A stretch of DNA of 64,000 bases from Nocardiopsis sinuspersici (GTDB lineage: Bacteria > Actinomycetota > Actinomycetes > Streptosporangiales > Streptosporangiaceae), in contig VWVT01000010.1 in NCBI GenBank assembly GCA_008638415.1, positions 62,001 to 126,000 on the forward strand, read 5' to 3'. A program made the translations under genes and the position numbers. Shown here one piece after another: positions 8,504-64,000 of this stretch (position 1 is the first letter of the stretch; every line of letters starts with the position of its first letter). The notes under the pieces were generated by a model, which ran no database searches, had not been told where the DNA came from, and saw nothing but the letters and a program-made list of their open reading frames with translations.

Positions 8504-9157
8504 TCAGGCCCCTTCGGGGGCCTCGCCCAGGTAGAAGGCGGTGGTCCGGTCCCGGGCGGCTCCGGCCTGTGAGGGAGGGGTCCCGGCCTCGACACTGGCC
8601 TCGGCCCACCGCGCGCTGCTCGCCGTGATGAACCGGCGCCCCTCGTCGGTCCGCTCCCAGCCGTCGACCTCGGGGGGCCCGTCGGACCCGGTGGTCAGGT
8701 GCCGCTCCAGCCCCATGAGGGCCAGGTCCCAGCCCACGCCCGTGGCACCCGGGCCGAACCGCTCCCAGAACTCCGCTGTGGTGTCGGCGTACGCGGTGTG
8801 CTCCAGGGTCAGCCGCGCGCCGTCGCCGTCCGGGGCCACCCGGACCGCGATCCAGCTGACATCGTCGCCGTACTCCCAGGTCGCCGTGAAGGACCGGGGC
8901 GCCTCACAGGACTCGACGGTGCCTCCCGCGTTCCCCTCCACCTGGTAGGTTCCGCCCGGGCGCAGCTCGCCGCTGACCGGCGCGAACCACCGGGGGAGCC
9001 GCTCGGCCGACGTACAGGCCTCCCAGAGGTCCTCCACGGTGGTGGGGTAACTCTGGCTGATGGTCGAGACCCGGGTCTCCCGCCCCTCGCGGGTACGGCT
9101 GTCCAGCCCTCGTGAGACGGCCTTGATCTGGGTTTCCACGGAGTTCGGAACGCTCAT
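8504..9157 (-). CDS. SRPBCC/AHSA1 (START-like) protein, candidate CalC-type self-resistance protein
   Basis: 217 residues. After a ~35-residue N-terminal stretch comes the AHSA1-type helix-grip fold: 'YPTTVEDLWEACTSAERLPRWF', 'ELRPGGTYQVEGNAGGTV', 'TATWEYGDDVSWIAVRV' and 'GVGWDLALMGLERHL'. The same fold is used by the enediyne self-sacrifice proteins CalC, CalU16 and CalU19, which bind the drug in a hydrophobic cavity and are cleaved in place of DNA; that is established for calicheamicin. Here the role is inferred from the cluster context and from the second paralogue at 53.6 kb. The start overlaps the ArsR stop (ATGA), so the two are one operon. AHSA1 proteins next to ArsR also occur outside antibiotic clusters, so this is not proof of resistance. 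Confidence 0.8.
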   Translation of the reverse strand: MSVPNSVETQIKAVSRGLDSRTREGRETRVSTISQSYPTTVEDLWEACTSAERLPRWFAPVSGELRPGGTYQVEGNAGGTVESCEAPRSFTATWEYGDDVSWIAVRVAPDGDGARLTLEHTAYADTTAEFWERFGPGATGVGWDLALMGLERHLTTGSDGPPEVDGWERTDEGRRFITASSARWAEASVEAGTPPSQAGAARDRTTAFYLGEAPEGA

Positions 9158-9495
9158 TGTCTCTCCTCGGTACGGCGTTGGCGCTTGCCCCGGGCGATCT
9201 CGGTCTCCAGCGCGGCCAGCTTCGGCTCCCAGAAGTGGCGGAACGAGTCCAGCCAGCTGTCCACCGAGCGCAGGGACGCGGCGTCGACCGAGTACAGGCG
9301 CCGCGTGCCCTCGGCGCGCACGTTCGCCATCCCGCTCTCCCGCAACACGCGCAGGTGTTGGGAGACGGCGGGTTGGCTGATCCCGAACTCCTCGCGGACC
9401 ACCCGGGTCAGCTCGCCTGAGCTGAGCTCTCCCGCTGACAACAGCTCCAGGAGACGCCGTCTGACCGGGTCACCGAGAACGTCGAAGGCATGCAT
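9154..9495 (-). CDS. ArsR-family winged-helix repressor (paralogue 1)
   Basis: 113 residues from ATG; a GTG two codons earlier is possible. It is a compact winged helix: 'DPVRRRLLELLSAGELSSGE', recognition region 'FGISQPAVSQHLRVLRESGM' and wing 'EGTRRLYSV'. No Cys metal-binding pair is present, so it is likely a non-metal ArsR/SdpR-like repressor. A GATAAT -10 box lies only a few bases upstream of the start, implying a leaderless transcript. A near-copy of the palindrome found at the second ArsR promoter overlaps this promoter. It is very similar to the ArsR protein at 48.7 kb, including the identical core GISQPAVSQHLRVLRE. It probably represses itself and the SRPBCC gene. Confidence 0.9.
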   Translation of the reverse strand: MHAFDVLGDPVRRRLLELLSAGELSSGELTRVVREEFGISQPAVSQHLRVLRESGMANVRAEGTRRLYSVDAASLRSVDSWLDSFRHFWEPKLAALETEIARGKRQRRTEERQ

Positions 9496-9503
9496 GGCCA
9501 CAT

Positions 9504-9532
9504 ATTATCACTCAGGGTTTATATAAGGCCTT
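9504..9532 (-). promoter_or_regulatory. Promoter and operator-like site of the ArsR/SRPBCC operon
   Basis: Read on the minus strand, CCTTATATAAACC precedes GATAAT, which is 8 bases from the ATG of the repressor. The TTATATAA core is the same as in the CTTATATAAG palindrome at three other promoters in the window, with one end base changed. The -35 region is poor. Confidence 0.5.
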
Positions 9533-9674
9533 GTGGAACCACGGTCGCCTGTGCGTTCCGCGTCGTCTCTTCGTGCGGAGCCGTGCTCGGCAAGGACGGA
9601 GTAGACGTCCGCTCCGGGCCGCACGAGCATGGAAAGCGGGTAACTGAGGCGGATCGAGTGGCGGGGAGTGCGGT

Positions 9675-10658
9675 TTGTCGAGTGCGATGGGGGCGTTCCG
9701 GCGCCGGATCATAACCCCGAAACTATCCGAGACAACGCTGAGGACCAGGGGTTTCCACGACAAGGGGCCGACCGCTCGCGGCATCCTGGAGAAGGTGGGG
9801 GCTTCCTTCCTCGACGGCCTGGGCGACGCGGTGGAGACCGCCTCCCCCCATGTGACGGACCAACGGCTGGAGGGTCTGCCCGCACGCTACCGGGGGTTCG
9901 CCTACGAGGGCGCCGCGATGGGGTTCGCGCTCCTGGACGGGTTTCTCCCGGGGAGTACCAGAGCCCGAAGCTTCATCGACGGACCCGGCGCCCCCCACGT
10001 CTACATGGCCTACATCGGCATCGGTTGGGCCATGGCCCGCCTGCCACGGCCGCTGTGGCCGGATACCAAGGCCCTGGACCCGCTGCTCCGGTGGCTCGTA
10101 CACGACGGTTACGGCTTCCACCAGGCCTACTTCCACACCGGTCGGTACGTACACCGTCAGCTTCGCGACCACAGCGCGGCCCGGCGCACGGGGGACGGCC
10201 CCTACGCGCTGCGCGCCGCCGACCAAGGGATCGGGCGGGCCCTGTGGTTCGTGGCCGGTGCGGACGCGGTCCGTGCCGTCGGGTTGGTGGACTCCTTTCC
10301 CCCGGAGCGCAGGTCCGACCTCTGGGCCGGGATCGGCCTGGCGGCGACCTACGCGGGCGGCACGGACGAGGCGGACTTGCGCCGACTGTGCCGGGGCGCG
10401 GGCGAGCACCGGTGGTTCCTGGCGCAGGGCGGTGCCTTCGCCGCCGAGGCGCGGGTGCGCAGCGGTCTCGTCGTTCCGGCCTGCGAGAGCGGGACGAGGG
10501 TGCTGTGCGGTATGGGCGTGGGCCGGGCGGCCCGCCTCTGCCGGGACCTGCGCCCCGGACCCGCCGAGGCGGAGGCCGACCCCGCCCGTCCCCCGTACGA
10601 GTCGTGGCGCGTTCGCCTCGCCGAGGAGCTGGCCCGCCACGGAGGGGACGGGTCGTGA
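9675..10658 (+). CDS. unbL: DUF1702/UnbL-type enediyne biosynthesis protein
   Basis: About 327 residues. The family is recognisable from 'RYRGFAYEGAAMGFALLDG', 'HVYMAYIGIGWAMARLP', 'LRWLVHDGYGFHQAYFHTGR' and 'QGIGRALWFVAGADA', the pattern of DUF1702 proteins that form part of the conserved enediyne cassette. It is soluble and its biochemical role is unproven; the cassette is thought to help shape the nascent polyene into the enediyne core. The start is uncertain: TTG with an upstream GGGGAG is used here, while an ATG four codons in lacks a good site. It is separated by 475 bp from the unbV-unbU operon and divergent from the ArsR operon. Confidence 0.85.
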   Translation: MSSAMGAFRRRIITPKLSETTLRTRGFHDKGPTARGILEKVGASFLDGLGDAVETASPHVTDQRLEGLPARYRGFAYEGAAMGFALLDGFLPGSTRARSFIDGPGAPHVYMAYIGIGWAMARLPRPLWPDTKALDPLLRWLVHDGYGFHQAYFHTGRYVHRQLRDHSAARRTGDGPYALRAADQGIGRALWFVAGADAVRAVGLVDSFPPERRSDLWAGIGLAATYAGGTDEADLRRLCRGAGEHRWFLAQGGAFAAEARVRSGLVVPACESGTRVLCGMGVGRAARLCRDLRPGPAEAEADPARPPYESWRVRLAEELARHGGDGS

Positions 10659-11133: not shown

Positions 11134-13038
11134 ATGCGGTTGATGTACCGTCTGGCGACACTCGCACTGGCCTTGGCGATGGTGGGTGCCCTGGGTACTC
11201 TGACCGTCCGCCCCTCTATGAGCGAGATGGAGAGGGACGAACGCGCGTCCTCCTTCGCGTTCGAGACACGTGCGCTCAACTCGGAGCCCGACGGCGCCCG
11301 CACCCAACGCGAGGTGGCCCCCGACCTGGAGCACTTCGAGGGGTGGATCTCCGCGGTGGGGGCTGGGGCGGCTCTTCTGGACCTGCGCGGGCTGGACCGG
11401 TCGGCCGACGTGTGCCTGGTCGACCCCCGGGACGACAGTGTCACCCTGCGCAACGCCCCTGGGAGCAGTGCCGACGACTATCCCGTCGTGGAGCTGCTGC
11501 CTGAGGGCCTTCCCTACGACCGCACCATGGCGCCCATGGGTTGTGTGCCCGCTGACCTGGACGAGGACGGCGATCTGGACCTTCTCGTCTACTACTGGGG
11601 CCGTTCCCCGGTCCTCTTCGTGAACACGGCCGGCCCCGAGGCGACACCGGCGGCGGAGAGCTTCACCGCCCACGAGACGGTCGAGCCGATGCAGACTTGG
11701 AACACGACCGCGCTGAACATCGCCGACCTGGACGGGTCCGGCTCACTCGACGTCCTCGTGGGCAACTACTTCCCCGACGGAGCGCGCGTGCTGGACCCCG
11801 AGGCGGCCGGCGACTCCCGGATGGAGATGCAGCAGAGCATGGGGCTGGCCACTAACAGCGGACGCAACCGGATCCTGCTCACGGAGCCGGAGGGCGCCGC
11901 GGACACGCCCCCCGTGTTCACCGACGCCAGTACGGCGCTGCCCGAGCACGTCGCCAACGCCTGGACGCTCGCGGCCGGCTTCCAGGACCTGAGCGGCAAC
12001 GGGGTCCCCGACCTCTACCTGGCCAACGACTTCGGCAACGACAGCTTCCTCGTCAACCGCTCCACCCCGGGAGAGCTCCGGCTGGAGCCGCTGAAGGGAG
12101 AGCGGGACATGGTCACCCCGAAGTCACAGGTCATGGCGAACGGTTCCTACAAGGGAATGGGGGTCACCTACACCTACACGGACGGCGCGGACCTGCCGAC
12201 CATCGTCGTCAGCAACATCACCACCCCCTACGCGCTGCACGAGAGCAACCTCGCCTTCGTACCGGACGGTGACGGCGCCGACCTCCTGGAGGGAACGGTG
12301 CCCTACTCCGAGAGCGCTGAGGAACTGGGGATCGCCCGGAGCGGATGGGCATGGGACGTCAAGGCCGCCGACTTCGACAACGACGGCACCGACGAGCTGG
12401 TCCAAGCCACCGGGTTCCTCAAGGGAGACCGGACACGCTGGCCGGAGCTCCAGGAGATCGCGATGGGCAACGACCAGTTGCTCAAGTACCCCCAGGCCTG
12501 GCCCAGGTTCTCCGAGGGGGACGACCTCTCCGGGCACGAGACCAATCCGTTCTGGGTGCGGGGGGAGGACGGACGATACACCGACCTCGCGGCCCCGCTG
12601 GGCATCGCCGAGTACGACGTCACCCGGGCCTTCGCCGTCGGTGACGTCGACGGCGACGGACTCCTTGACATGGCGGTGGCCAATCAGTGGCAGAACTCCC
12701 GGATGCTGCTGAACAGGGCGCCCGACGCGGACCCGGCCGCCATCCTGCGCCTTGTGCGCCCGGGGGCCGCCGGTGACGGCGCCCTGGTGGCGGCGGTCGG
12801 CGCCTCGGCCCGTGTGGACGCCCCCGGCCATCCCCCGCAGACGGAACAGCTCTTCCCCGCCAACGGCCATGTGGGGGTCTCCGACTCGATCGTCCACCTG
12901 GCGGCGCCAGCGGGCGCCCTGCCGGTCACCCTCTCCTGGCGTGACGGGGAAGGCACCCGGCACACCACCGATCTGGTGGTGGAACCAGGAACGCACACGA
13001 TCCTCCTCGAGGACGACGGAACGGCGGTTGTCCGATGA
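11134..13038 (+). CDS. unbV: UnbV enediyne biosynthesis protein (ASPIC/UnbV, FG-GAP repeats)
   Basis: 634 residues. The N-terminus has a basic residue followed by about 20 hydrophobic residues (signal peptide or membrane anchor), so the bulk is probably extracytoplasmic. It contains at least five FG-GAP/integrin-like calcium-binding loops, for example DLDEDGDLDLLV, DLDGSGSLDVLV, DLSGNGVPDLYLAND, DFDNDGTDELV and DVDGDGLLDMAV, making a beta-propeller. The C-terminal ~90 residues are the ASPIC/UnbV domain ending in 'GTHTILLE'. UnbV is one of five proteins conserved in all enediyne clusters; its reaction is not established. The start follows GAGGAG. The stop overlaps the unbU start (ATGA), so the genes are coupled. 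Confidence 0.92.
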   Translation: MRLMYRLATLALALAMVGALGTLTVRPSMSEMERDERASSFAFETRALNSEPDGARTQREVAPDLEHFEGWISAVGAGAALLDLRGLDRSADVCLVDPRDDSVTLRNAPGSSADDYPVVELLPEGLPYDRTMAPMGCVPADLDEDGDLDLLVYYWGRSPVLFVNTAGPEATPAAESFTAHETVEPMQTWNTTALNIADLDGSGSLDVLVGNYFPDGARVLDPEAAGDSRMEMQQSMGLATNSGRNRILLTEPEGAADTPPVFTDASTALPEHVANAWTLAAGFQDLSGNGVPDLYLANDFGNDSFLVNRSTPGELRLEPLKGERDMVTPKSQVMANGSYKGMGVTYTYTDGADLPTIVVSNITTPYALHESNLAFVPDGDGADLLEGTVPYSESAEELGIARSGWAWDVKAADFDNDGTDELVQATGFLKGDRTRWPELQEIAMGNDQLLKYPQAWPRFSEGDDLSGHETNPFWVRGEDGRYTDLAAPLGIAEYDVTRAFAVGDVDGDGLLDMAVANQWQNSRMLLNRAPDADPAAILRLVRPGAAGDGALVAAVGASARVDAPGHPPQTEQLFPANGHVGVSDSIVHLAAPAGALPVTLSWRDGEGTRHTTDLVVEPGTHTILLEDDGTAVVR

Positions 13039-14030
13039 CTGCGACCAAACCCGAAGAGAGAGAGTCCGGAGCACCCGAGGCCGCCGAGGGCCGGACCGCG
13101 GGATCCGGGCCCCCTCCTGCCACCGCGGCCCGCCCCGCCTCGGACCGGAGGGTGATGGCGCTGCGCATGTTCGCCACCTCCATCACCGCGTTCACCGTCC
13201 TGGGACACCTGTTCCTGGGTTTCGAGCAGTCGCCCGTCACCCCCGTCGCGGCCGTTCTGTTCGGTTACGTGTTCGATCTGGTCCTGGAGACACTCGACGC
13301 CCGTGCCGCCGACCGGGAACCCGGTTACGCGGGCGGGGTCGGCAGGATGATCGACTACCTGCTTCCCACCCACATCGCGGGACTGGCGTGCGCGCTGCTG
13401 CTGTGGGGCAACGTCTCGCTGTGGCCGTACCTGTTCGCGGTGGCTGTCGCCGTGTGCAGCAAGTACCTGCTCCGGATCCCGGTGGCGGGCCGCAAACGCC
13501 ACTTCCTCAACCCGTCCAACTTCGGGATCACGGTGACGCTGCTGCTCTTCCCATGGGTGGGGATCGCACCCCCCTACCACTTCACGAACAACATCGACGG
13601 AACCCTGGACTGGCTCATTCCGCTGGGCATCCTCATGGCGGGGACGATGCTCAACATCAACCTCACGAAGCGCTGGCCGCTCATCCTCGGATGGGCGGGC
13701 GGCTTCGCGCTACAGGCGGTGCTGCGGTGGCTGGTCCTGGACCACGCGCTCCTGGCGGCCCTGCTGCCCATGACCGGGGTGGCCTTCGTCCTGTTCACGA
13801 ACTACATGATCACTGACCCGGGGACCACACCCTCCAAACCCCGGAACCAGGTGGTCTTCGGGCTGACCACGGCCATGGTCTACGGACTCCTCGTCACCTT
13901 CCACGTCGTGTTCGGCCTCTTCTTCGCCCTGGTCATCACCTGTGCACTCCGGGGGGCCGTCCTGGTCTGCGCGCCCCGGTTCGGCCGGACCCGTGCGGCC
14001 ACCGCCACGAGTCCGGCCCCGACCGCCTGA
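13035..14030 (+). CDS. unbU: UnbU enediyne biosynthesis membrane protein
   Basis: 331 residues. A soluble Pro/Ala-rich N-terminus (~35 residues) is followed by about nine hydrophobic helices, with short loops and the signature 'GRKRHFLNPSNFGITVTLLL' between them and 'TNYMITDPGTTPSKPRNQ' near the end. The latter resembles the NqrB/RnfD flavin-site region, consistent with the known distant relation of UnbU to that redox family. UnbU is a conserved cassette member of unknown reaction, located in the cytoplasmic membrane. It is translationally coupled to unbV and is followed after 23 bp by another membrane protein gene. Confidence 0.92.
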   Translation: MTATKPEERESGAPEAAEGRTAGSGPPPATAARPASDRRVMALRMFATSITAFTVLGHLFLGFEQSPVTPVAAVLFGYVFDLVLETLDARAADREPGYAGGVGRMIDYLLPTHIAGLACALLLWGNVSLWPYLFAVAVAVCSKYLLRIPVAGRKRHFLNPSNFGITVTLLLFPWVGIAPPYHFTNNIDGTLDWLIPLGILMAGTMLNINLTKRWPLILGWAGGFALQAVLRWLVLDHALLAALLPMTGVAFVLFTNYMITDPGTTPSKPRNQVVFGLTTAMVYGLLVTFHVVFGLFFALVITCALRGAVLVCAPRFGRTRAATATSPAPTA

Positions 14031-14053
14031 ACACCACACCAGCGGAGCGACAC

Positions 14054-14665
14054 ATGCCGAAGACCGAACCCCCCCACGGAACCCCGTCCGCCCCCGGAGA
14101 CACCACCCACGCCGGCCTCTACGGCAGGGCCATGCGCTTTCTGAACTCCCGGGGGCACCACCTGTGCCTGAAGCTGTACATGGTCATCGTCCTCGCGCAC
14201 TGGGCCGAGCACATCATCCAGGCAGCCCAGATCTACGTGCTCGACTGGCCGGTGGAGCAGGCCCGCGGCGCTCTCGGCATCCCCTTCCCCTGGCTGGTCA
14301 CCTCCGAGTGGCTGCACTACGGATACGCCCTGATCATGCTGATCGGGCTGCTCCTGCTCCTGCCGGGTTTCACCGGACGGAGCCGCGCGTGGTGGACGGC
14401 TTCCCTGCTGGTGCAGGTCTGGCACCACTTCGAGCACCTGCTCCTGCTCGTCCAGGCGGCCAACGGAGTCAACATCGGCGGCGGTGACGCCCCGACCAGC
14501 CTCATCCAACTGCTGATCCCCCGTGTCGAGCTGCACCTGTTCTACAACACCATCGTCTTCGTCCCCATGGTCGTGGCGATGTACCTCCACATGCGTCCGA
14601 ACCCCTCGGAACGCGAGGCCATGGACTGTTCGTGCGCACACGCCTCCCGGGGGGCGCACGAGTGA
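14054..14665 (+). CDS. His-rich polytopic membrane protein in the unb operon
   Basis: 203 residues with about four transmembrane helices. It has a striking set of His residues inside or at the edges of the helices: 'LAHWAEHIIQ', 'EWLHYGYALIM', 'QVWHHFEHLLLLVQ' and 'RVELHLFYN'. Repeated HxxEH-type pairs look like a membrane metal (di-iron or heme) site, as in integral-membrane hydroxylases and desaturases, but the exact family is not recognised and the metal site is inference. A Cys-rich tail 'AMDCSCAHAS' follows. It starts 23 bp after unbU and overlaps the next gene by 4 bp (GTGA), so it belongs to the unbV operon and may cooperate with UnbU/UnbV. Confidence 0.75.
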   Translation: MPKTEPPHGTPSAPGDTTHAGLYGRAMRFLNSRGHHLCLKLYMVIVLAHWAEHIIQAAQIYVLDWPVEQARGALGIPFPWLVTSEWLHYGYALIMLIGLLLLLPGFTGRSRAWWTASLLVQVWHHFEHLLLLVQAANGVNIGGGDAPTSLIQLLIPRVELHLFYNTIVFVPMVVAMYLHMRPNPSEREAMDCSCAHASRGAHE

Positions 14666-15105
14666 GCCGCGCTCCGCGCCGGATCTCGGCGTTCACCGTG
14701 GCGCTGCTGCTGGTCGCCGCGCTCATCGTCTACCTGGGGGCCTCCAACGTGGACCGGAGCCTGCGTGCCGCCCGCGCCGACGGTGTCGCCGGAACCTTCA
14801 CCGGCACCAGGCTCGACTGCGTCCAGCACCCGGGCCACGAGTCGTGCACCTGCTACGGCGTCTACGTGCCGGACTCGGGCGGTCCCGAGCGCACCGACGT
14901 CTACCTCTACGGGAGGGACCGGCAGTCCTGCCCTGTGGGGGAGCCCGCCTCCGCCGTGGACGTGGGGTCGGCCAGCCGGGTGTACGGGCCCGAGGGCTCG
15001 AACGAGTGGATCATGACGGCCGCCATGATCCTGGTCGGGCTGGGCGTCGGCGGCTGGGCCGTCCGGCCCCGGCGGGTGGGCGGCGGCCAGGCTCCTCCGG
15101 ACTGA
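14662..15105 (+). CDS. Small two-helix membrane protein (DUF3592-like)
   Basis: 147 residues from a GTG overlapping the preceding stop. One transmembrane helix near the N-terminus ('FTVALLLVAALIVYLG'), an external ~80-residue domain with four Cys ('RLDCVQHPGHESCTCYGVYV' and a later SCP), and a second helix near the C-terminus ('WIMTAAMILVGLGVGGWAV'). The layout of helix, small beta domain, helix resembles DUF3592-type proteins. The cysteines suggest a disulfide-bonded outer domain. Function unknown; its operon position links it to the UnbV/UnbU membrane module. Confidence 0.7.
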   Translation: MSRAPRRISAFTVALLLVAALIVYLGASNVDRSLRAARADGVAGTFTGTRLDCVQHPGHESCTCYGVYVPDSGGPERTDVYLYGRDRQSCPVGEPASAVDVGSASRVYGPEGSNEWIMTAAMILVGLGVGGWAVRPRRVGGGQAPPD

Positions 15106-21537: not shown

Positions 21538-21540
21538 CCA

Positions 21541-37643: not shown

Positions 37644-37734
37644 GGTCTCTCCCTCTGCGGTCGGGAGCACGGCGGGTACCGGCCCGGCGTGCGGCGTGTG
37701 GTGCTGTTCCCGGAGCCGTGCGGAGTCCCCGGCC

Positions 37735-52553: not shown

Positions 52554-52692
52554 CCGCGAACATGTGCTTGATAAAGAATTAGTGAGTTGAGACGCTATGT
52601 ACGCGGTGCCCGGACGCTCCGGTCCGCGCGCACGCGTCCCGGACTTCCGTTCCCGCGCCAGGGAGCCCTTCGGCGCGGACGAAGGAGGAGCG

Positions 52693-54285: not shown

Positions 54286-54295
54286 ATTTTCCGTG

Positions 54296-55469: not shown

Positions 55470-56526
55470 CCCCGGGCGTCCCCTCAAGGGAGTCGCGCAG
55501 CCGGGCGACGTCATCGAGCATGCGCGCCCGCAGCTCCTCCCCGCAGAAGGCGGCGCGCACCCCCGCCTCGGCCAGGTCCAGGATCCGGGACAGGGAGAGG
55601 CCCCACCGCCGCGCGCAGAGCCGGTACTCACCCTCCAGGTCGGTGCCGAACATGGCCGGATCATCGCTTCCCAGCACCACGGGAACCCCGGCGCCGAGAA
55701 GGTCGGGCAGCGGATGGACGTCCAGAGAGGAGACGGCGCCGGTGCGCAGGTTCGAGGTCGGGCACACCTCCAGGGTCACGTTCCGCTCGACGAGGAGTTC
55801 CAGCAGCGCGGGGTCCCCGGCCGCGCGGATCCCGTGGCCGACCCGCTCCGCACCCAGGTCCAGTACCGCCGACCGCACCTCCTGCGCGGTGGTCGTCTCC
55901 CCGGCGTGCGGAACGCTGTGCAGCCCGTGGTCCCTGGCCCGGGCGAAGGCGTCGCGGAAGAGGGCACGGGGGGCGACGGCCTCGGGTCCACCGAGCCCGA
56001 AGCCCACCGTTCCCTCCGGCCGGTGCCGAACGATCCAGTCCACGGTGGCCGACGCCTCCTCCGGTCCCTCGTCGCCCGAGGCGTCGAAAATCCAGTTCAG
56101 TGTGACGCCGTGCCGCTCGGCGACCAGGGTCCGGCCCAGGGTCAGGGCCTCGGCGAGCTCCTCCGGCCGTAGTCCCCTGCGCAGGTGGGAGAGGGGGGTG
56201 ACGGTCACCTCCGCGTAGCGGACCGCGTGTTCGGCCAGCCGCCTGCCGAGGCCGCGGACCAGGTCCTCGACGTCGGCGGCGCTGGTGACGAGGGAGTTGA
56301 CCGACGTGTACACCTCGATGAAATGCGCGAAGCCGGTGAAAGCGAAGTAGCGGCGTACACCGTCGGCGTCCGTCGGAACTCCGTGCCCGCGACGGCGGGC
56401 GGCCAGACGCGCCACGGCCTCCGGTTCCGCGGCGCCCAGCAGGTGCAGGTGCAGATCCACCTTGGGCAGCGCGCTCAGGAGGGCGTCGATGCCGGAGGTG
56501 CCCTCGGTGGGGGGCTGCTGGGGCAA
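55438..56526 (-). CDS. Adenosine deaminase family protein
   Basis: 362 residues. TTG after GGAGG is the start. The TIM-barrel metal residues are present: 'KVDLHLHLLGAAEPEAVARL' (HxH), the mid-chain 'GLHSVPHAGETTTAQEVRSA' (His and Glu), 'ERVGHGIRA' and 'VPVVLGSDDPAMFGTD' (Asp-Asp). It is a Zn-dependent purine or aminofutalosine deaminase type enzyme. In the cluster it could act on an adenine-containing cofactor product, such as an adenosine by-product of SAM, or have an unrelated housekeeping role. Convergent overlap with the sulfur-carrier gene is unusual. It has a promoter in the AT-rich stretch next to the HDxxGH gene. Confidence 0.9.
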   Translation of the reverse strand: MPQQPPTEGTSGIDALLSALPKVDLHLHLLGAAEPEAVARLAARRRGHGVPTDADGVRRYFAFTGFAHFIEVYTSVNSLVTSAADVEDLVRGLGRRLAEHAVRYAEVTVTPLSHLRRGLRPEELAEALTLGRTLVAERHGVTLNWIFDASGDEGPEEASATVDWIVRHRPEGTVGFGLGGPEAVAPRALFRDAFARARDHGLHSVPHAGETTTAQEVRSAVLDLGAERVGHGIRAAGDPALLELLVERNVTLEVCPTSNLRTGAVSSLDVHPLPDLLGAGVPVVLGSDDPAMFGTDLEGEYRLCARRWGLSLSRILDLAEAGVRAAFCGEELRARMLDDVARLRDSLEGTPGVSRRPGAGRW

Positions 56527-56632: not shown

Positions 56633-57397
56633 GTGCGGTTCGACTTAGAGGCGGTCGCCGAGGACTATCTGCGGCGGCGCTTCCCGGGGGCCGAGAACGG
56701 CCTGCGGCAGCTCCCGCGGACGCGGCTCGACTGGGACGAGGACTACTGCCGTGCGGTGGCGGAGCACTTCCACCGTGCTCCGGTCGTGGCCCCGCCTCCC
56801 TGGCTGCTGCGCTCCTACCGCAGCCTCCAGCGCGAGAGCCTGGAGCAGTTCCGCGCGATGACCAGCGCCGGGCTCCGGGTCAGGCCGTGGCGTGGGGCGG
56901 GTGAGCCCTACCGGGGGTCCGCTCACCTGAGGCGCAGCGTCCTCTCCACGAGGGTGCTCCACGTCTACCTGACCAGTTCCGGCCACGGACCCGGAGGGGA
57001 ATCTCGGCCCCACCCGATGAGGGAGCCCTCACCGGTGCGGATCGACGGGGTGCGGTTCACCCACAACGACGTCTTCCGGGCCGTCCACGACGCCTTCGGG
57101 CACGTGATGCACGGCAACGGCTTCGGACCGAAGGGGGAGTTCCGCGCCACCTACAGCCACATGCGGATGTACCCGGAACGGGCGCATCCCGTGCTGTTCG
57201 CCGAACAGGTGGCGCAGATCTGCTGGTTCTACTACGGGCCCCACCTGGCCGACTCCCGGGGACGGCTGCCGAGGAGGGGCGAGGCCGGGTACCTCCCACC
57301 GTCGGAGCGCCCCTATCCGGAGCAGAAGGTCGTGGCGCTCGGCCCTGGGCTCCTCCGGGACTTCCTGGCCCTCTTCGGGCGGGGCCCGGAGCGCTGA
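56633..57397 (+). CDS. HDxxGH/Glu metal-site protein, distantly like aromatic amino acid hydroxylases
   Basis: 254 residues; GTG after GCGGAGG is the start. The core is 'VFRAVHDAFGHVMHG', then 34 residues later 'LFAEQVAQICWFYYG', and near the end 'YPEQKVVALGPGLL'. HDAFGH with a following Glu at that spacing resembles the 2-His-1-Glu iron triad of pterin-dependent hydroxylases (HELLGH...E). I do not recognise a characterised family; similar uncharacterised proteins are known from bacteria and phages as far as I recall. The N-terminal ~100 residues are charged and unlike the hydroxylases. It could be a non-heme iron oxygenase for the enediyne pathway. It is divergent from the deaminase. Confidence 0.6.
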   Translation: MRFDLEAVAEDYLRRRFPGAENGLRQLPRTRLDWDEDYCRAVAEHFHRAPVVAPPPWLLRSYRSLQRESLEQFRAMTSAGLRVRPWRGAGEPYRGSAHLRRSVLSTRVLHVYLTSSGHGPGGESRPHPMREPSPVRIDGVRFTHNDVFRAVHDAFGHVMHGNGFGPKGEFRATYSHMRMYPERAHPVLFAEQVAQICWFYYGPHLADSRGRLPRRGEAGYLPPSERPYPEQKVVALGPGLLRDFLALFGRGPER

Positions 57398-57431: not shown

Positions 57432-58847
57432 TCAGACGGAGGTGGTCGCCGCGGACAGCGCGAAGTCGGCCACCCGCAGCGGGGGCATGGCCGTCCGCAC
57501 GGTGCAGTCGCCCCACTCCCTCGGCAGGGTCCTGGTGGACCGGCCCACCTCCGTCACCCGCTCCAGCAGTCCCACCGGGCTCTCATCGAACCGGGAGTTG
57601 CCGACCGTTCCGGTGACCTCGCCGTCCTCCACCAGGTACACCCCGTCCCGGGTGAGGCCGGTCAGCCGTAGCGAGGCGGCGTCCACCTGGCGCAGGTACC
57701 ACAGACTGGTGACGAGCAGACCGCGCCGGGTGGAGGCCACCATGTCGGCCAGCGACGGGGCGTCCGCCGGACCCTCCAGCCGCAGGTTGTCGATCCTCGG
57801 GGAGACGGGGACACCGGCTCTCAGGGCCGACCTCCGGTCATGCACGAGCGTGTTCAGCACGCCGTCGGCGATCCAGTCCGTCGCACCGAGCGAGAGCCCG
57901 CTGTCGAAGACCGACGCGGCGCCGTCGGCGCCCCGCGCCACCACAAAGGGCACGGCCCCCATCCCCGGCAGGGCCGGATCGCTGCTGAGCGCCAGCGGCT
58001 GGGAGGTGAGCCGTTCGCCGAGCCGGGTGCCGCCCCCGGGACGCCCGAAGACGGTACGGCCGTGCAGCGCGTCGTCCGCGTCCAACTCTCGGTACAGGTG
58101 GAGCATGAGGTCCGCGACACAGGAGGGGGACAGGATAACCTCGTAGCGGCCCGGGGGACACGCGGAGCGGCGGGTGCGGCGCGGACGCGCGCGCAGGCGG
58201 TCGTCCATGGCCGTGACCCAGCCCTCGGGGAACGGGGTGTCCGGGGCGGTGGTCGCGCTGTCACCGGCCCAGGAGGTCGCCGGGTCCTCGACGCCGCGCA
58301 TGGTGAGGTCCAAGAGGGCTGTGGGACGTGTGTGCCGCAGGCGCACCCCGGTGGAGGAGGCCAGGTAGGTCGTACGGACGTGTCGTTCGGCGTACCCGTG
58401 GAGCAGGCGGCCCTCGGCGCGGGCCCGGGCGAAGGCGGACCGCAGTTCCTCGGGCACGTTCCCGAGCGGGTCCTCGGGCGGGGCGGGGGCGGGGGAGCGC
58501 CATTCGGCGGCGGAGCCGACCGGAACCTCACCTGGGCCGGGGAGAGCAGGGGCGTCCGCGACGACCGGGTTCCCCGAACAGGAGCGCCACGCCTCCTCCG
58601 CGATCCGGGAGGTGTCCACACCGTGGACGCCGCTGTGGGAGACGACTCCCGCCGAGGTCCCCTCCCGGGTGTTTCGCAGGGCGATGACGGTCGTGCGCCC
58701 CACGTCCGCGCTCCCGCTCGCGGTCACGGTGTTGGCGGCCCACCGCAGGTGGGTGCCGCCGCCCTGCTCGACGATGACCACGCACGCGTCGGCGCGGCAG
58801 TCCGCCAACACCCTCTCGGCGGTCTCCTGCGGGGTACGGTCGGCCAC
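57432..58847 (-). CDS. pmbA: TldE/PmbA-like subunit of a TldD/TldE metalloprotease
   Basis: About 471 residues; GTG after GAGGAGGAGAA. PmbA/TldA pattern: '[20 protein letters not shown]' near the start, a '[20 protein letters not shown]' segment corresponding to the metal-domain position of TldD but without the HExxxH, '[17 protein letters not shown]', and the C-terminal '[20 protein letters not shown]' strand. It forms a heterodimer with TldD (TldD carries the metal). TldD/E clip leader peptides or degrade unfolded peptides in known systems such as microcin B17. The two genes are adjacent (34 bp) and cotranscribed. A peptide substrate in this cluster is not evident. Confidence 0.9.
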
Positions 58848-58881
58848 TTCTCCTCCTCGCGCTGTCGGATCCACGCGTCGG

Positions 58882-60372
58882 TCAGACGGAGCGCCGGACG
58901 CTCACGCCCTCGAACAGGGCGGTGGGGCAGCCGTGGCTGACCGGCGCCGACTGCGTCGGCTGCCCCTTGGCACACAGGTCGGCCCCGAAGAGCCGGTAGG
59001 TCTGCGGGCCCCCGACCGCCGACAGCGCCGCCCAGAAGTCCTGCGTGTTCCCCCGGTAGGCGACGTCGCCCACCGGCTCAGCGACCTGCCCTCCCCGTAC
59101 GCGGTAGCACCGTTGGGCGGTGAACTGGAAGTCGCGGCGCTGCATGTCGATCGACCAGCCCGCCGCCCCCACGACGTAGATGCCGTCGTCCACACCGCCG
59201 AGGAGGTCCGGGGTCGAGGGGCCGCCGGGGGAGGGCCTCAGCGAGACGTTCGGCATGCGTTGGAGCGGGGCGTGCGCCGCCGACTCGGCGTACGAACAGC
59301 CGTTGGACCGGGGTGATCCGATCGTGCGCGCGCCCCGCCGGTCGAGCTGGAGACCGACCAGCAGGCCCTCCTCCACCAGGGACCACTCCTGTGCCTTCAC
59401 GCCCTCGTCGTCGAAGCCGACCGTGGCCAGCCCGCCCGGTGCCGTGCGGTCCGCCCGGACGTTCATCAGGTCCGAGCCGTAGCACAGGGTCCCCAGGTCC
59501 GAGGCCGAGACGAAGGACGTGCCCGCGTAACCGGCCTCGTGGCCCAGGATCCGGTCGAGCTCGGTGGCGTGTCCCACGGACTCGTGCAGGGTCAGCCAGA
59601 GGTTGGACGGATCGATGACCAGGTCGTAGCGGCCAGGTTCGACCGAGGGCGCGCGCAACTTGCCGTCCAGGTGCCCGGGCAGCTCCGAGAGCTCGGCCTC
59701 CCAGTCCCAGTCGGTGCCCGAGAGGTACTCCCAACCCTGCCCGCTGGGGCCTCCGAGGGTGCGTAGGCTCGCGGTCCGGCCCGTGCGCGGATGGGTTCCC
59801 ACCGCCACCAGCATGGGGTGCGTCCGCACCCGCCGCTGGAGGGTCTCGGTCCCGGCCGAGTCCGTGTAGAACTTGTTCTCTTCGGTGATCGCGAGCATCG
59901 CCCACACGTGTGAGACCGGCGGTGAGGAGAGCAGGCGCCGGCTCCAGTCCGCCAGAAGGGCCGTGCGCTCCTCGGACGGGACGTCGAAGGGGTTCACCTC
60001 GTAGGAGGCCCGCCAAGTCGCGCGGTGCACCGGTTCGTCCACCGGATCCGATCCGCCCCCGCCCACCCGTGCCGCCGCTTTCGCCAGGTCCACCGCGCGC
60101 TCCGCGCAGAGCGCCGCGTTCCTCGGGACGGGGGCGGTGCGGGAGGCGAAGCCGGTCCCTCCCCCGCGCAGCACCTGTACCGCCACCGCCGTGTCCGTGG
60201 AATCGGAGCTGTTCGACGGGGCCCCGTCGCGGAGGAAGACCACCGAGCGCCGGGTCCGCTCGACACGCACGGACGTGTGCTCGGCCCCCAGCCGCGCCGC
60301 GCGCTCCAGGGCGGCGTCGGCGGTCTCCCGGGGACGGAGCCCGATGAGGTCCTGGTCCACTTCGCCTGGCAC
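58882..60372 (-). CDS. tldD: TldD-like metalloprotease subunit
   Basis: 496 residues; GTG after GGAGGAGACCC. TldD signature: 'HESVGHATELDRIL' (HExxxH metal motif around residue 260), followed by 'GTSFVSASDLGTLCYGSDLM' and 'VGFDDEGVKAQEWSLVEEGL', with the C-terminal 'RDFQFTAQRCYRVRGGQVAE'. It hydrolyses peptides as a heterodimer with TldE. It is upstream of TldE in the same operon. In natural product clusters such a pair can trim modified peptides or act on amides; in this cluster an amide link from the ATP-grasp enzyme could be a substrate. That link is inference. Confidence 0.93.
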   Translation of the reverse strand: MPGEVDQDLIGLRPRETADAALERAARLGAEHTSVRVERTRRSVVFLRDGAPSNSSDSTDTAVAVQVLRGGGTGFASRTAPVPRNAALCAERAVDLAKAAARVGGGGSDPVDEPVHRATWRASYEVNPFDVPSEERTALLADWSRRLLSSPPVSHVWAMLAITEENKFYTDSAGTETLQRRVRTHPMLVAVGTHPRTGRTASLRTLGGPSGQGWEYLSGTDWDWEAELSELPGHLDGKLRAPSVEPGRYDLVIDPSNLWLTLHESVGHATELDRILGHEAGYAGTSFVSASDLGTLCYGSDLMNVRADRTAPGGLATVGFDDEGVKAQEWSLVEEGLLVGLQLDRRGARTIGSPRSNGCSYAESAAHAPLQRMPNVSLRPSPGGPSTPDLLGGVDDGIYVVGAAGWSIDMQRRDFQFTAQRCYRVRGGQVAEPVGDVAYRGNTQDFWAALSAVGGPQTYRLFGADLCAKGQPTQSAPVSHGCPTALFEGVSVRRSV

Positions 60373-60540: not shown

Positions 60541-60562
60541 TATCCGTTGAAGGTGGGATCCG

Positions 60563-61246
60563 ATGTCTCGGACGCGCCGTAAGTACAACCAGTACTGTGG
60601 TCTGGCGTCGGCGCTGGACATCATCGGGGAGCGCTGGACCCTGCTCATCGTGCGTGAGCTCCTGCTGGGCCCGGCCCGTTACCGCGACCTGCTGGAGTCG
60701 CTGCCCGGCATCGGTACCAACCTTTTGGCCGAGCGGCTCAAGTTCCTCACGGAGAACGGCGTCGTGCGGAGGGCGGAGGGCGCCAACGAGCGCGGTTACG
60801 AGCTCACCGCGCACGGTGAGCTGCTGCGCGAACCCGTTCTCCAGATCGCCCACTGGGGCCTGAGCCACCTCGGCGCCCCCGAACCCCAACACGAGGTGCG
60901 GCCCCACTGGGGTTTCCTGGCGGTGCAGTCCATGCTCGACCAGTCGCGCGTCGGGGAGTTCGACGAGTGCTACGAGTTCCGTGTGGACGGGTCCGACTTC
61001 CACATCCGTGTGGAGGGGGGCAGGGCCACCACCCACGAGGGCCGCTGCGAGTCACCCGCCATGCTCGCGGTCACCGACGCGCGGACCTTCGTCGAGATCG
61101 GTTCCGGCAACCTGAGCCCGATCATGGCCGTGGTCAGCGGCCGGCTCTCCCTGGAGGGCGACCAGCAGTGCGTCCAGCGGGTCATGGAACTGCTCGGCCT
61201 CGTCGACGGCGAGGTTGCGCGGGGCCAGGTGCGGGAGTCGGTCTGA
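60563..61246 (+). CDS. HxlR-family regulator with C-terminal SCP2-like domain
   Basis: 227 residues. The N-terminal ~100 residues are an HxlR winged helix: 'YCGLASALDIIGERWTLLIV', 'LLLGPARYRDLLESLPGIGT', 'LLAERLKFLTENGVVRRAEG' and 'YELTAHGELL'. The rest is an SCP2/sterol-carrier-like ligand-binding domain ('HIRVEGGRATTHEGRCESPA', 'MAVVSGRLSLEGDQQCVQRV'). This two-domain layout lets a hydrophobic molecule control DNA binding. The gene is followed by a terminator and then by the desulfurase operon, and is divergent from the TldD/E operon, which it probably controls. A lipid-like or polyene product as ligand is a guess. Confidence 0.9.
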   Translation: MSRTRRKYNQYCGLASALDIIGERWTLLIVRELLLGPARYRDLLESLPGIGTNLLAERLKFLTENGVVRRAEGANERGYELTAHGELLREPVLQIAHWGLSHLGAPEPQHEVRPHWGFLAVQSMLDQSRVGEFDECYEFRVDGSDFHIRVEGGRATTHEGRCESPAMLAVTDARTFVEIGSGNLSPIMAVVSGRLSLEGDQQCVQRVMELLGLVDGEVARGQVRESV

Positions 61247-61589: not shown

Positions 61590-62873
61590 ATGAGCCACGG
61601 CATCCCCGCGGACACACGGAGCACGGTGGGCCGAGCGGTCCGGGACCGGTTCCCGATCCTGTCCACCCGCCCGGGCGGCGTCCCCCTCACCTACCTGGAC
61701 AACGCGGCCACCACCCAGAAGCCGGACAGCGTACTGGACGCGATCGTCGGCTACTACTCCCGCGACAACAGCAACATCGGCCGGGGCCACTACCGGCTCA
61801 GCCTGAACGCGACCGAGTTGTACGAGGGCGCCCGCGAACGGGTGCGCCAGGTCCTGGGCGCCCAGCACCCCGACGAGGTGGTGTTCACCCAGGGGACGAC
61901 CGCGGCGACCAACCTGCTGGCGGACACCTTCGGGGCGCGGGTCGTCGGCCGGGGAGACCAGGTCGTGGTCAGCGGTATGGAGCACAACTCCAACCTGCTT
62001 CCTTGGCGCAGGCTCTGTGAGCGGAGCGGCGCGGAACTGGTCGTCGTCCCCGTCGACGGGGACGGCCGTGTCGCGGCGGCGGACTTTCGAGCAGCCCTGG
62101 GGCCGCGTGTGCGACTGGCCGCGGTCGCCCACGTCTCGAACGTGCTCGGCACGGTCAACCCCGTCCGCGAGATGATCGCGGACGCCCACCGGGACGGTGT
62201 CCCCGTCGTGGTCGACGGGGCCCAGGCCGTCCCGCACCGTCCGGTGGACGTGCGCGAACTCGACGCCGACTTCTACTGCTTCTCCGGACACAAGGTCTAC
62301 GGTCCGACGGGCACCGGAGCGCTCTACGGCAGGCGGGAACTCCTGACCGATCTGCCCCCATACCAGGTGGGCGGAGGAACGGTCAAGGGCGTCGCGCACG
62401 ACGAACCCGTCCGCCACGTCCCCGTTCCCTCCCGGCTGGAGGCGGGCACACCGGACGTGGCGGGCGCGATCGGACTCGTCGCGGCCCTGGACTTCGTCGA
62501 CGGCCTCGGCTGGGACGCCGTACGCCGACACGACGCCGAGCTCGTCGACCACGCGGTCCGGGTACTGAGGGGAGTCGACCGGGTGCGGGTGGTCGGTGCT
62601 CCTGAAGCCGACCCCAGCGGCATCGTCTCCGTCGTGGTCGAGGGCGTCCACCCCTACGACGTGGGCGGGCACCTCGACCGGCACGGTGTCGCGGTCCGCA
62701 GCGGGGTGCACTGCGCCAGTACGTTCCTCGACGACCTGGGACTGCTCGGCACGGTCCGGATCTCCTTCGGGGTCTACAACACCGTGGACGAGATCGACTT
62801 CCTCGTCCGGGCGCTGGAGACGGTCCGACCCGGTGAGTGGACCAAGAACCACCCCGACAGCCGGTTCCTGTGA
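61590..62873 (+). CDS. SufS-type cysteine desulfurase
   Basis: 427 residues. PLP fold-type I desulfurase of the SufS/CsdA group: 'TYLDNAATTQKPDSVLDAI', 'FTQGTTAATNLLADTFG', 'VVSGMEHNSNLLPWRRLCER', 'VPVVVDGAQAVPHRPVDV', Schiff-base Lys235 in FSGHKVYGPTG and the active-site Cys375 in RSGVHCAS. It removes sulfur from cysteine as a persulfide and passes it to a carrier. A dedicated desulfurase together with a ThiS-like carrier indicates that sulfur is an ingredient of the product. There are no Suf scaffold genes next to it, so iron-sulfur assembly is less likely. It is 1 bp upstream of a C-S lyase family gene. Confidence 0.93.
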   Translation: MSHGIPADTRSTVGRAVRDRFPILSTRPGGVPLTYLDNAATTQKPDSVLDAIVGYYSRDNSNIGRGHYRLSLNATELYEGARERVRQVLGAQHPDEVVFTQGTTAATNLLADTFGARVVGRGDQVVVSGMEHNSNLLPWRRLCERSGAELVVVPVDGDGRVAAADFRAALGPRVRLAAVAHVSNVLGTVNPVREMIADAHRDGVPVVVDGAQAVPHRPVDVRELDADFYCFSGHKVYGPTGTGALYGRRELLTDLPPYQVGGGTVKGVAHDEPVRHVPVPSRLEAGTPDVAGAIGLVAALDFVDGLGWDAVRRHDAELVDHAVRVLRGVDRVRVVGAPEADPSGIVSVVVEGVHPYDVGGHLDRHGVAVRSGVHCASTFLDDLGLLGTVRISFGVYNTVDEIDFLVRALETVRPGEWTKNHPDSRFL

Positions 62874-62874
62874 C

Positions 62875-64000
62875 ATGCGGTTCGACACCAGGCTGGTCCA
62901 GAGCGGACGGGAAGCCGACGGAACCGGGGCCACGGTGCCCCCCATCCACGTCGCCACGACCTACGACCAGCGCCACCAGGACCCGCCGCGCTACTTCTAC
63001 GCCCGCGGTGAGAACCCCACCCGGGAGGCGCTGGAGCACACGCTCGCGTCCCTGGAGGAGGTTCCCTTCGCCACCGCCTACTCCTCCGGGCAGGCCGCGG
63101 GGGACGCGATCCTCTCCGTCGTCCCCCCGGGCGGGCGGGTGGTCGCCTCCGACGACGTCTACGGGGGCACCCGCGCGTTGTTCGCCCTCCTGGACCGCAG
63201 GGGGATCACGGTGGACCACGTGGACCTCACCGACCGGGACGCACTGCGCGCGGCCCTGCAACGGGGGCCGGACCTCGTGTGGATCGAGGCGCCCACCAAC
63301 CCGCTGCTGAAGATCGCCGACCTGGCCGAGGTGTGCCCACGGGCCCGCGCCGCCGGGGCGGTCGTCGTGGTGGACAACACGCTCGCCAGCCCCGTGCTCC
63401 AGCGACCGCTGGACCTGGGGGCCGACGTGAGCCTGTACAGCACGACCAAGTCGATCGCGGGCCACAGCGACGCGGTCGGCGGGGCCCTCGTCTACCGGGA
63501 CGCCGAACTGCACCGGAGGCTGCTCTCCTACCGGACCGCGGTCGGCAACGTCCCCGGACCGCTCGACTGCTACCTGGTCCACCGGGGGCTGAAGACCCTT
63601 TCCCTGCGTGTGGCCCGGCAGGTGGCCAACGCGCAGGCGATAGCCGAGGCGCTGCGGGACTCGGGCCTCACCGGGGCCGTCCGCTACCCGGGGCTGCCCG
63701 AACACCCCCAGCACGACGTGGCCGGAAGGCAGATGTCGGGGCCCGGCTCCATCGTCTGCTTCGAGTGCCCGGTCGAGCCGGAGAAGCTCTTCCGCCGGCT
63801 GCGGCTCCACTCCTGCGCGGTGAGCCTCGGCGGAGTCGGATCGCTCATCCAGTGCCCGGCGCGGTCGACGCACGCGGGGATCCCCCGGAGCACGCGGCTG
63901 GAACTGGGCCTCACCGATGACCTGGTCCGGGTGTCGGCGGGGATCGAGGACGCCGCGGACCTGGTCGAGGACCTGTTGACGGCACTGCGCGCCACCGTTT
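62875..64000 (+). CDS. Cystathionine gamma-synthase/lyase family PLP enzyme, 3' truncated
   Basis: At least 375 residues, running off the window end without a stop. Cys/Met metabolism PLP signature: 'TVPPIHVATTYDQ', 'ATAYSSGQAAGDAILSVV', 'RVVASDDVYGGTRALFALL', 'VWIEAPTNPLLKIADL' and Schiff-base Lys192 in YSTTKSIAGHSDAVGGA. The family eliminates or replaces sulfur at C-gamma or C-beta of cystathionine, homocysteine or methionine. In the calicheamicin cluster CalE6 belongs to this family. Cotranscribed with the desulfurase, it probably supplies or transfers sulfur. The ATG is 1 bp after the desulfurase stop; no separate ribosome site is visible, so translation is likely coupled. Confidence 0.9.
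   Translation, partial: MRFDTRLVQSGREADGTGATVPPIHVATTYDQRHQDPPRYFYARGENPTREALEHTLASLEEVPFATAYSSGQAAGDAILSVVPPGGRVVASDDVYGGTRALFALLDRRGITVDHVDLTDRDALRAALQRGPDLVWIEAPTNPLLKIADLAEVCPRARAAGAVVVVDNTLASPVLQRPLDLGADVSLYSTTKSIAGHSDAVGGALVYRDAELHRRLLSYRTAVGNVPGPLDCYLVHRGLKTLSLRVARQVANAQAIAEALRDSGLTGAVRYPGLPEHPQHDVAGRQMSGPGSIVCFECPVEPEKLFRRLRLHSCAVSLGGVGSLIQCPARSTHAGIPRSTRLELGLTDDLVRVSAGIEDAADLVEDLLTALRATV

Follow-up and report, generated by a model that had tools for sequence, protein, structure and literature searches.

What kind of enediyne is encoded by a cluster whose core polyketide synthase and tailoring genes point to different ancestors? The question is raised by 64,000 nucleotides of Nocardiopsis sinuspersici DNA (contig VWVT01000010.1, positions 62,001 to 126,000; G000:C9:62001-126000), hereafter the window, which a first-pass annotation made from the letters alone had read as a near-complete cluster for a new 10-membered, trisulfide-type enediyne. 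We find that the enediyne cluster is real and that it holds an apparently complete calicheamicin-family set. It is very probably a complete cluster of the calicheamicin/esperamicin family, of an aryl-free Nocardiopsis subtype, with a mosaic cassette.

Coordinates are window positions, and G and L labels denote comparison genomes and loci. Genomes labelled as its kin in the same genus include those of Nocardiopsis sp. ATB16-24 and Glycomyces fuscus TRM 49117, which makes the genus Nocardiopsis in GTDB terms. Genes were called over the window and its flanks in a genome (G000) of 6.1 Mb and 46 contigs, and the 50 calls from 9687 to 67910 were counted as cluster genes. Their proteins were scanned with Pfam and NCBIfam profiles, and eight of them, together with the 8504 protein and a G452 glycosyltransferase, were searched against the sequences of the PDB.

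Assignment to the calicheamicin family

All five genes of the enediyne cassette (E3, E4, E5, the enediyne polyketide synthase PKSE, and E10), by which enediyne clusters are generally recognised, were found by profiles or identity, as the first-pass annotation had reported. The core genes are as follows.

9687-10658, +: E3, DUF1702 (PF08012, E = 3.4e-117), the sole DUF1702 gene of the cluster
11134-13038, +: E4, FG-GAP/CRTAC1-like (FG-GAP_3, E = 7e-20)
13155-14030, +: E5, RnfD-like membrane protein (PF03116, E = 2.1e-5, 24.5 bits against a cut-off of 27.7; 50% identical to C-1027 E5)
14054-14665 and 14662-15105, +: two small proteins, membrane-type by eye, with no Pfam or NCBIfam match
15841-21537, +: PKSE (KS, AT and KR profiles)
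21534-21995, +: E10, 4HBT thioesterase (4HBT_2, E = 7.5e-10; 75% identical to C-1027 E10)
21997-22611, +: E6-like flavin reductase (PF01613, E = 8.7e-43; 50% identical to SgcE6)
22579-23307 and 23378-24223, -: TetR and AraC regulators, the first genes on the calicheamicin-type side of a break described below

The PKSE carries motifs that we take to mark KS, AT, ACP and DH domains.

Related clusters were sought with two markers. CalU16, searched against 160 genomes in the genus of Micromonospora matsumotoense (E 1e-25), matched in 132; five genomes were 81-90% identical and one 61%. Regions were fetched around three of the five (G025, G098 and G032) and around the 61% match (G012). G025, G032 and G098, whose CalU16 is 90, 85 and 82% identical to the PDB protein, serve as proxies for the Micromonospora calicheamicin cluster. 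The class-V pyridoxal-phosphate (PLP) enzyme at 36318, searched at E 1e-80 through the 340 genomes of G003's family, was found in 15, eight of them at 69-89% identity, including the Nocardiopsis genomes G192 and G186 (Nocardiopsis sp. CNR-923); within the genus it is present in three of 40 genomes, its own included. Its homologues are 74-77% identical in four calicheamicin-type and four esperamicin-type clusters. Among the latter, G452 was identified as esperamicin-type because its CalG2-like enzyme gives a full-length alignment with EspG2, free of gaps across the 399 residues (E = 3.7e-243), and G451, G468 and G472 because two further G452 genes are 93-96% identical there.

Homologues of the 50 cluster genes number 49 in G192, 48 in G186, 38 each in G025 and G452, 37 each in G098 and G032, and 22 in G012. 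For seven window genes and one past its edge the best PDB match is a calicheamicin protein (CalG2, CalG3, CalG4, CalE6, CalS11, CalS13, CalU16 and CalU17; E = 2.8e-59 to 9.6e-178), so that the likeness is not due to chance. Each combination taken as diagnostic of the family is present: homologues of CalG2, CalG3, CalG4 and CalS13; of CalU16 and CalU17; and a CalE6-type lyase with a cysteine desulfurase. These two results, the 38 shared genes and the eight PDB matches, bear out the calicheamicin-like sulfur and aminopentose genes of the first-pass annotation and also its 10-membered, trisulfide-type reading, which is well supported. The sugar and glycosyltransferase genes within the window are given below.

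24614-25453, +: methyltransferase (PF08242, E = 1e-13), without counterpart in G025, G032 and G098
25460-26683, -: CalG2-like glycosyltransferase, presumably for the thiosugar (CalG2 3iaa, E = 2.4e-135)
26724-27725, -: aldo-keto reductase, putatively of deoxysugar formation (PF00248, E = 4.1e-68)
27919-29052, +: CalS13-like sugar aminotransferase, DegT (CalS13 4zas, E = 9.6e-178)
29104-30237, +: CalG3-like glycosyltransferase (CalG3 3d0q, E = 2.9e-165)
30282-31634, +: NDP-glucose dehydrogenase, probably CalS8-like (TIGR03026, 361.3 bits, cut-off 189.8)
31631-32665, +: NDP-glucuronate decarboxylase-like protein of epimerase fold, probably CalS9-like (PF01370, E = 3.7e-51; 58% identical to G025)
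37735-39162, -: NDP-hexose 2,3-dehydratase (PF03559, E = 1.7e-142)
39310-40314, -: O-methyltransferase (PF00891, E = 4.6e-43)
49175-50431, -: CalG4-like glycosyltransferase, presumably for the aminopentose (CalG4 3ia7, E = 4e-150)
52597-53427, +: methyltransferase, aminosugar N-methyltransferase-like by eye (PF13649, E = 3.3e-14; 60% identical to G025)

E2 has been used as a predictor of 9-membered products (PMC5181780). Positions 1-75000 hold a single DUF1702 place, hence no E2, and none of the C-1027-type P450, GMC or DUF5987 genes that served as a further yardstick for 9-membered clusters. A 9-membered assignment is nonetheless what most of the neighbouring PKSEs would predict: the PKSE is 72-75% identical to those of E2-bearing Nocardiopsis clusters (L007 and L010 among them) that carry those three genes, and the window has an E6-like flavin reductase. 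With E2 and the three genes missing and the tailoring genes those of the calicheamicin family, we consider a 9-membered cluster very improbable. The AraC regulator was discarded as a marker of ring size, as it occurs in both types.

Ancestry of the cassette

Most of the cassette block, from about 9.7 to 22 kb, has a different ancestry from the rest of the cluster. A phylogeny of 46 PKSEs unites the window with L008 (Nocardiopsis sp. ATB16-24, G175), L027 (Glycomyces fuscus TRM 49117, G168) and L102 (support 100), within a Nocardiopsis clade of 12 rows; the PKSEs of G192, Micromonospora and G452 fall elsewhere. Among the other eight rows of the clade, six have two DUF1702 genes and L009 has one E2-like gene (L103 stands outside this count). 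One DUF1702 gene each is found in the window, L008, L027, G200, G025, G032, G098, G192, G186 and G452. A clade uniting the PKSEs of the window and G192 – a pair chosen after the first tree was seen – was rejected in an approximately unbiased (AU) test on 16 sequences (p-AU 0.000186). The first-pass annotation had named a PKSE among 9-membered types, with no 10-membered relatives, as evidence against its reading. The PKSE does lie in a mostly E2-bearing clade, but its three nearest rows have no E2, and, since the cassette and the tailoring genes do not share a history, the placement does not decide the matter.

The clusters that resemble the block are small, sugar-free Nocardiopsis clusters – G200, L027 and L008 – which share the window's cassette order at 66-88% identity. 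Unlike the window, they have no calicheamicin-type sugar, sulfur or glycosyltransferase gene within about 20 kb on either side, and no homologue of 36318 genome-wide. Single-gene trees join the window to these three with supports of 87 (E4), 95 (E5), 98 (14054), 96 (14662) and 89 (thioesterase), and the 14054 and 14662 proteins, 69-81% identical to those of G200, L008 and L027, travel with the cassette. E3 parts from G192 and G186 (99) and has no firm sister. The order E3-E4-E5-orf-orf-PKSE-thioesterase-E6 is contiguous in the window and the small clusters and is split to both ends of the cluster in G192 and G186. On its right side the block breaks off between 21995, where the thioesterase gene ends, and the TetR gene (22579-23307); beyond this break, TetR joins G186 (99) and AraC joins G192 and G186 (99). 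In three genomes (L139/L140, L141/L027/L142 and L143/L008/L144) the small cluster occupies one site, with a serpin-like gene behind valS and dut on one side and a stretch holding two TrkA-like genes on the other (named by eye). This site is empty in G000 and G192, where these neighbours adjoin each other and no enediyne cluster intervenes.

As judged from the trees, the gene order and the empty small-cluster site of G000, the mosaic most likely arose by exchange of the cassette. In a more specific version, which we advance tentatively, the E3-E10 cassette of about 12 kb would have been replaced by that of a small sugar-free cluster, with a PKSE nested among 9-membered-like ones, and the chimera would make an aryl-free S-methyl-thiosugar trisulfide enediyne of the namenamicin/esperamicin-core kind. 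Were this true, the locus would show by a case from nature that ring size is not set by PKSE ancestry, with the proviso that the small clusters themselves have no E2. Horsman et al. (2010) reportedly argued, to go by their title, that polyketide synthase chemistry does not direct the divergence between 9- and 10-membered enediynes, of which the window cluster would be a natural case.

Replacement in the window's lineage is not the only history that would leave such a pattern. Duplication followed by loss, or the taking up of another cassette by the G192/G186 lineage while the window kept the older one, is a lesser but genuine possibility: the trees do not polarise the event, and the two enediyne PKSEs of G186 make the co-residence of two clusters real. 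Against it, the window block keeps the gene order of the small clusters, and it is in both sisters that the cassette is split to two ends. That the mosaic is an artefact of assembly or binning is scarcely credible. The genome is a draft in 46 contigs, but the locus lies on a single contig of 337,097 bases, with a G+C content that stays within 0.67-0.75 and does not jump at the block; from the thioesterase through E6 to TetR, neighbouring frames touch or overlap; and the genome is listed as 100% complete and 0.24% contaminated.

Several points weigh against a calicheamicin-family cluster with an exchanged cassette. Firstly, taken by itself the PKSE placement would ally the cluster with mostly E2-bearing ones, and the trees of E4, E5, 14054 and 14662 hold no E2-bearing Nocardiopsis rows. 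Secondly, E3 does not fall with the small clusters, leaning weakly (46) to the E2-bearing L044; the placement of E6 is ambiguous; and the direction of exchange is not polarised. Thirdly, the lower median identity to G192 of the cassette (65.4% for eight genes) than of the tailoring region (78.4% for 40) had to be abandoned as proof of exchange, as the cassette is likewise lower against G452 (46.5 against 58.3) and, by a smaller difference, against G025 (54.6 against 58.5); it is the trees that carry the argument. Furthermore, a 414-residue gene kept in all ten non-Nocardiopsis clusters is absent from all three Nocardiopsis clusters, and no metabolite is known for the cluster.

Two side observations concern cassette-bearing loci. 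G186 holds an E2-bearing, 9-membered-like cluster (L041) besides its calicheamicin-type one (L125-L128). L062, a short contig of a Thermomonosporaceae metagenome-assembled genome, carries, one after another, the end of a PKSE gene and genes for a thioesterase, a flavin reductase and a UbiB-like protein (46%).

The missing aryl arm

Six genes – a 1271-residue synthase, a KASIII-like gene, a flavin halogenase, a P450, a fourth glycosyltransferase and a CalC-like gene – are present in all four Micromonospora clusters (including G025, the source of the queries) and in none of the three Nocardiopsis clusters, apart from partial matches of 35% and 32% in G186. We take these to be CalO5, CalO4, CalO3, CalO2, CalG1 and CalC, respectively. 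The search for the halogenase and KASIII-like genes covered the cluster, that for the synthase and CalG1 the whole of G000. The synthase gave five matches genome-wide, only 31-46% identical; their frames are 1595-2762 residues long, and the PKSE of the window is among them. The single CalG1-like match is the CalG3 homologue, at 35%. The window thus lacks what would mark calicheamicin itself: orsellinate synthase, halogenase and CalG1, and a CalC-like gene within the cluster. It represents a distinct aryl-free Nocardiopsis subtype of the family. The first-pass annotation had looked to the region past the right edge for P450, aromatic-acid polyketide synthase and halogenase genes; one P450 is there, but neither of the others.

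Esperamicin bears an aromatic group, and the esperamicin-type clusters also have no CalO5-like gene in the stretch fetched. An aromatic arm might, then, be supplied in trans or by other chemistry, giving a full esperamicin- or calicheamicin-like aryl glycoside, and the ATP-grasp, PRMT-like and UbiB genes would represent extra tailoring capacity. We judge this unlikely, given that G000 has no close CalO5 or CalG1 homologue and that only three calicheamicin-type glycosyltransferases were seen in the cluster. Separately, the E2-bearing cluster of G186 has a 51% CalO5-like stretch on the same contig, and in G012 the aryl, sugar and glycosyltransferase genes of a calicheamicin-type cluster (L088-L092) occur with no PKSE cassette in the 100 kb fetched.

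Predicted pathway and product

For an aryl-free cluster of this family, the PKSE cassette would build the polyene precursor of the core, which family genes would convert to a 10-membered warhead. Sulfur would be installed by the cysteine desulfurase, CalE6-like lyase, class-V PLP enzyme, ThiS-like carrier and CalU17 homologue. A hydroxylamino sugar would be attached by the CalG3 homologue, a thiosugar by that of CalG2 and an alkylaminopentose by that of CalG4. The first of these would arise through CalS13, a P450 and CalG3; the deoxythiosugar through the 2,3-dehydratase, aldo-keto reductase, sulfur genes and CalG2; and the alkylaminopentose through the NDP-glucose dehydrogenase, decarboxylase, CalG4 and methyltransferase. 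The sole P450 seen in the cluster (67910) is common to calicheamicin-, esperamicin- and Nocardiopsis-type clusters (11 of the 13 columns compared, G457 and G268 excepted), and a CalE10-like role in forming the hydroxylamine is presumed on that account. The producer would be protected by the CalU16-like protein and an ABC exporter.

Calicheamicin and esperamicin share a trisaccharide. As the window has neither an aryl arm nor CalG1, the sugars expected are those of that common trisaccharide, and we infer an aryl-free trisulfide enediyne with three sugars as the product.

An S-methyl group on the thiosugar could come from the MmuM-like gene at 46760. Its VNC and GGCCG motifs, present in all four called homologues, the window's included, are presumably zinc-site cysteines. 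The gene is linked to the cluster in all three Nocardiopsis and all four esperamicin-type clusters and in G457, and none was found in the fetched stretch of the four orsellinate-bearing clusters or of G268. This distribution fits a division between S-methyl and S-acyl thiosugars. However, a 51-54% homologue lies elsewhere in all four Micromonospora genomes, in G025 some 15 kb beyond the cluster, and the occurrence of such homologues in calicheamicin-type genomes weakens the assignment, which we keep as a guess only; the gene may instead be ordinary methionine metabolism drawn into the cluster. No second copy above 34% was found in G000, G192, G186, G452 or G451.

Sulfur, accessory and regulatory genes

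The remaining genes within the window, and those at its edges, are as follows.

8504-9157 and 9154-9501, -: AHSA1 and ArsR, a left-edge pair of uncertain membership (8504 protein matches CalU16, E = 1.7e-24)
32666-34417, + and 34578-36299, -: two family-5 solute-binding proteins (PF00496)
36318-37670, -: class-V PLP enzyme, probably CalS4-like, the family marker (PF00266, E = 8.9e-35)
40495-41154, +: propeller-like protein A (fold by eye), common to calicheamicin- and esperamicin-type clusters, 55-58% identical outside Nocardiopsis
41151-42419, +: ATP-grasp ligase (PF13535, E = 1.2e-14)
42614-43810, +: DUF6004 protein (PF19467, E = 2.3e-236; 67% identical to G025)
43874-45423, +: PRMT-like methyltransferase (43874) and second propeller (44764), both also in G457
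45417-46709, +: UbiB/ABC1-like kinase (PF03109, E = 7.3e-48)
46760-47686, -: MmuM-like S-methyltransferase (PF02574, E = 3.7e-54)
47975-48706, +: DUF899 protein (PF05988, E = 2.1e-49)
48722-49132, -: ArsR-type regulator (class by eye), 63-77% identical in G192, G186, G025, G098, G032 and G012
50731-52553, +: DrrAB-type ABC exporter (class by eye, no profile run), 68-86% identical in G192 and G186
53578-54174, +: CalU16-like self-sacrifice resistance protein (CalU16 2luz, E = 2.8e-59)
54293-55186, +: CalU17-like FGE-fold protein (CalU17 7ml6, E = 2.3e-125)
55203-55469, +: ThiS-like sulfur carrier (PF02597, E = 1.2e-6), adjoining the CalU17-like gene
55438-56526, -: adenosine deaminase-like (TIGR01430, 254.3 bits, cut-off 216.55)
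56633-57397, +: 254-residue protein without Pfam or NCBIfam match, kept in calicheamicin-, esperamicin- and Nocardiopsis-type clusters at 50-78%
57432-60372, -: TldE/TldD pair (PmbA_TldD domains)
60563-61246, +: HxlR-SCP2 regulator (PF01638, E = 6.1e-17; PF02036, E = 4e-7)
61590-62873, +: SufS-type cysteine desulfurase, probably CalE4-like (TIGR01979, 477.7 bits, cut-off 475.1)
62875-64000, +: CalE6-like lyase, its stop codon ending 2 bases beyond the window (CalE6 4u1t, E = 2.1e-137)
past the right edge to about 69145: RmlB (64141), methyltransferase, RmlA, CalS11-like methyltransferase (CalS11, E = 9.5e-118 in the PDB search) and P450 (67910), named by eye except CalS11

The cluster thus runs from about 9.7 to 69.1 kb. 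Its right end, near 69145, lies beyond the window and is followed by a TetR gene and then by genes without homologues in related clusters. The left border is uncertain, the first sure member being E3 at 9687. The AHSA1 protein of 8504 also resembles (37-42%) an AHSA1 gene within the Micromonospora clusters, and AHSA1/ArsR-like pairs occur at other loci of Micromonospora and Nocardiopsis genomes, including six of seven loci found with the CalU16-like query (L066-L071). With matches in 132 of 160 genomes, the CalU16-like protein was dropped as a specific cluster marker. Relatives of enediyne self-sacrifice proteins may have a general role, as these loci and matches bring to mind.

The sugar, methyltransferase, sulfur, ATP-grasp, UbiB, TldD/E, FGE-like and solute-binding genes listed in the first-pass annotation are all found in the region it described. 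Its view of the FGE-like, TldD/E, solute-binding and propeller genes as foreign to enediyne clusters does not hold: G025, G098 and G032 have counterparts of CalU17 (the closest relative of the FGE-like protein), the ThiS-like carrier, TldD/E, both solute-binding proteins, propeller A, DUF6004, DUF899 and 56633, so that most of the supposedly foreign genes are standard. Twelve genes have no counterpart in G025: 14662, 21997 (E6-like), 22579 (TetR), 24614 (methyltransferase), 41151 (ATP-grasp), 43874 (PRMT-like), 44764 (second propeller), 45417 (UbiB), 46760 (MmuM), 55438 (adenosine deaminase), 60563 (HxlR) and 64141 (RmlB). Among the clusters compared, the ATP-grasp ligase is in G192 and G186 only, besides a 28% match in G012. 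G457, a genome that came up in the family-wide search with 36318, has on a 17-kb contig (L161) counterparts of the window's PRMT-like, second propeller, UbiB, MmuM and DUF6004 genes. The proteins of 32666 and 34578 have no evident signal peptide (by eye) in most clusters compared, which is odd for transport proteins.

The enzymes that install sulfur in these drugs were called unknown in the CalE6 paper of 2016 (PMC4851618). When aryl-bearing, esperamicin-type and aryl-free clusters are set side by side, the candidates come down to those present in nearly all: the SufS-type enzyme, CalE6, the class-V PLP enzyme, CalU17, the ThiS-like protein, DUF899, 56633 and TldD/E, with gaps in G012, G186, G457 and G268. 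The class-V enzyme was rejected as a canonical cysteine desulfurase (SufS match of 103 bits, far below the cut-off of 475). The ThiS-like carrier ends in Gly-Gly in all eight called homologues, the window's included; no ThiF/MoeB-like activating enzyme for it was noticed in the cluster by eye or among Pfam matches.

Comparison with known systems

Among titles and abstract openings we found no published account of this cluster or of a cassette exchange; the tables of PMC5181780 (TSRI0455 and TSRI0369, for example) lay outside that scope. The mosaic offers a natural experiment on whether PKSE origin governs a 9- or 10-membered outcome, and a natural test of the exchange of parts between such drug pathways.

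With the calicheamicin proxies the window shares counterparts of CalG2-4, CalE6, CalS11, CalS13, CalU16, CalU17, TldD/E, the solute-binding proteins and DUF6004. It is without their orsellinate synthase, KASIII-like gene, halogenase and adjoining P450, CalG1-like glycosyltransferase, CalC-like gene and 414-residue gene, and has in addition ATP-grasp, PRMT-like, second propeller, UbiB, MmuM, adenosine deaminase and HxlR genes. The esperamicin-type clusters resemble the window in having no orsellinate arm in the fetched stretch, an MmuM gene beside the CalE6-like gene, and 38 of the 50 genes (G452). They differ in a PKSE only 41-42% identical, in having no CalU16, ATP-grasp or DUF6004 match in the fetched stretch, and in a 529-residue gene, CoA-transferase-like by eye, that the window lacks.

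Namenamicin combines a calicheamicin-type warhead with the absence of an aryl arm. A compound from ascidians, thought to be of Micromonospora origin, it has an S-methyl group on a sugar, according to a review (PMC7460354).

The closest systems are those of Nocardiopsis G192 and G186. Their PKSEs are 59-60% identical to that of the window, their cassette genes are split to both ends, and their flanking genes were not found in 158 kb around the window's cluster. Their tailoring regions, however, are collinear with that of the window at median identities of 78.4 and 74.9%, and with 49 and 48 of the 50 genes they belong to the same subtype.

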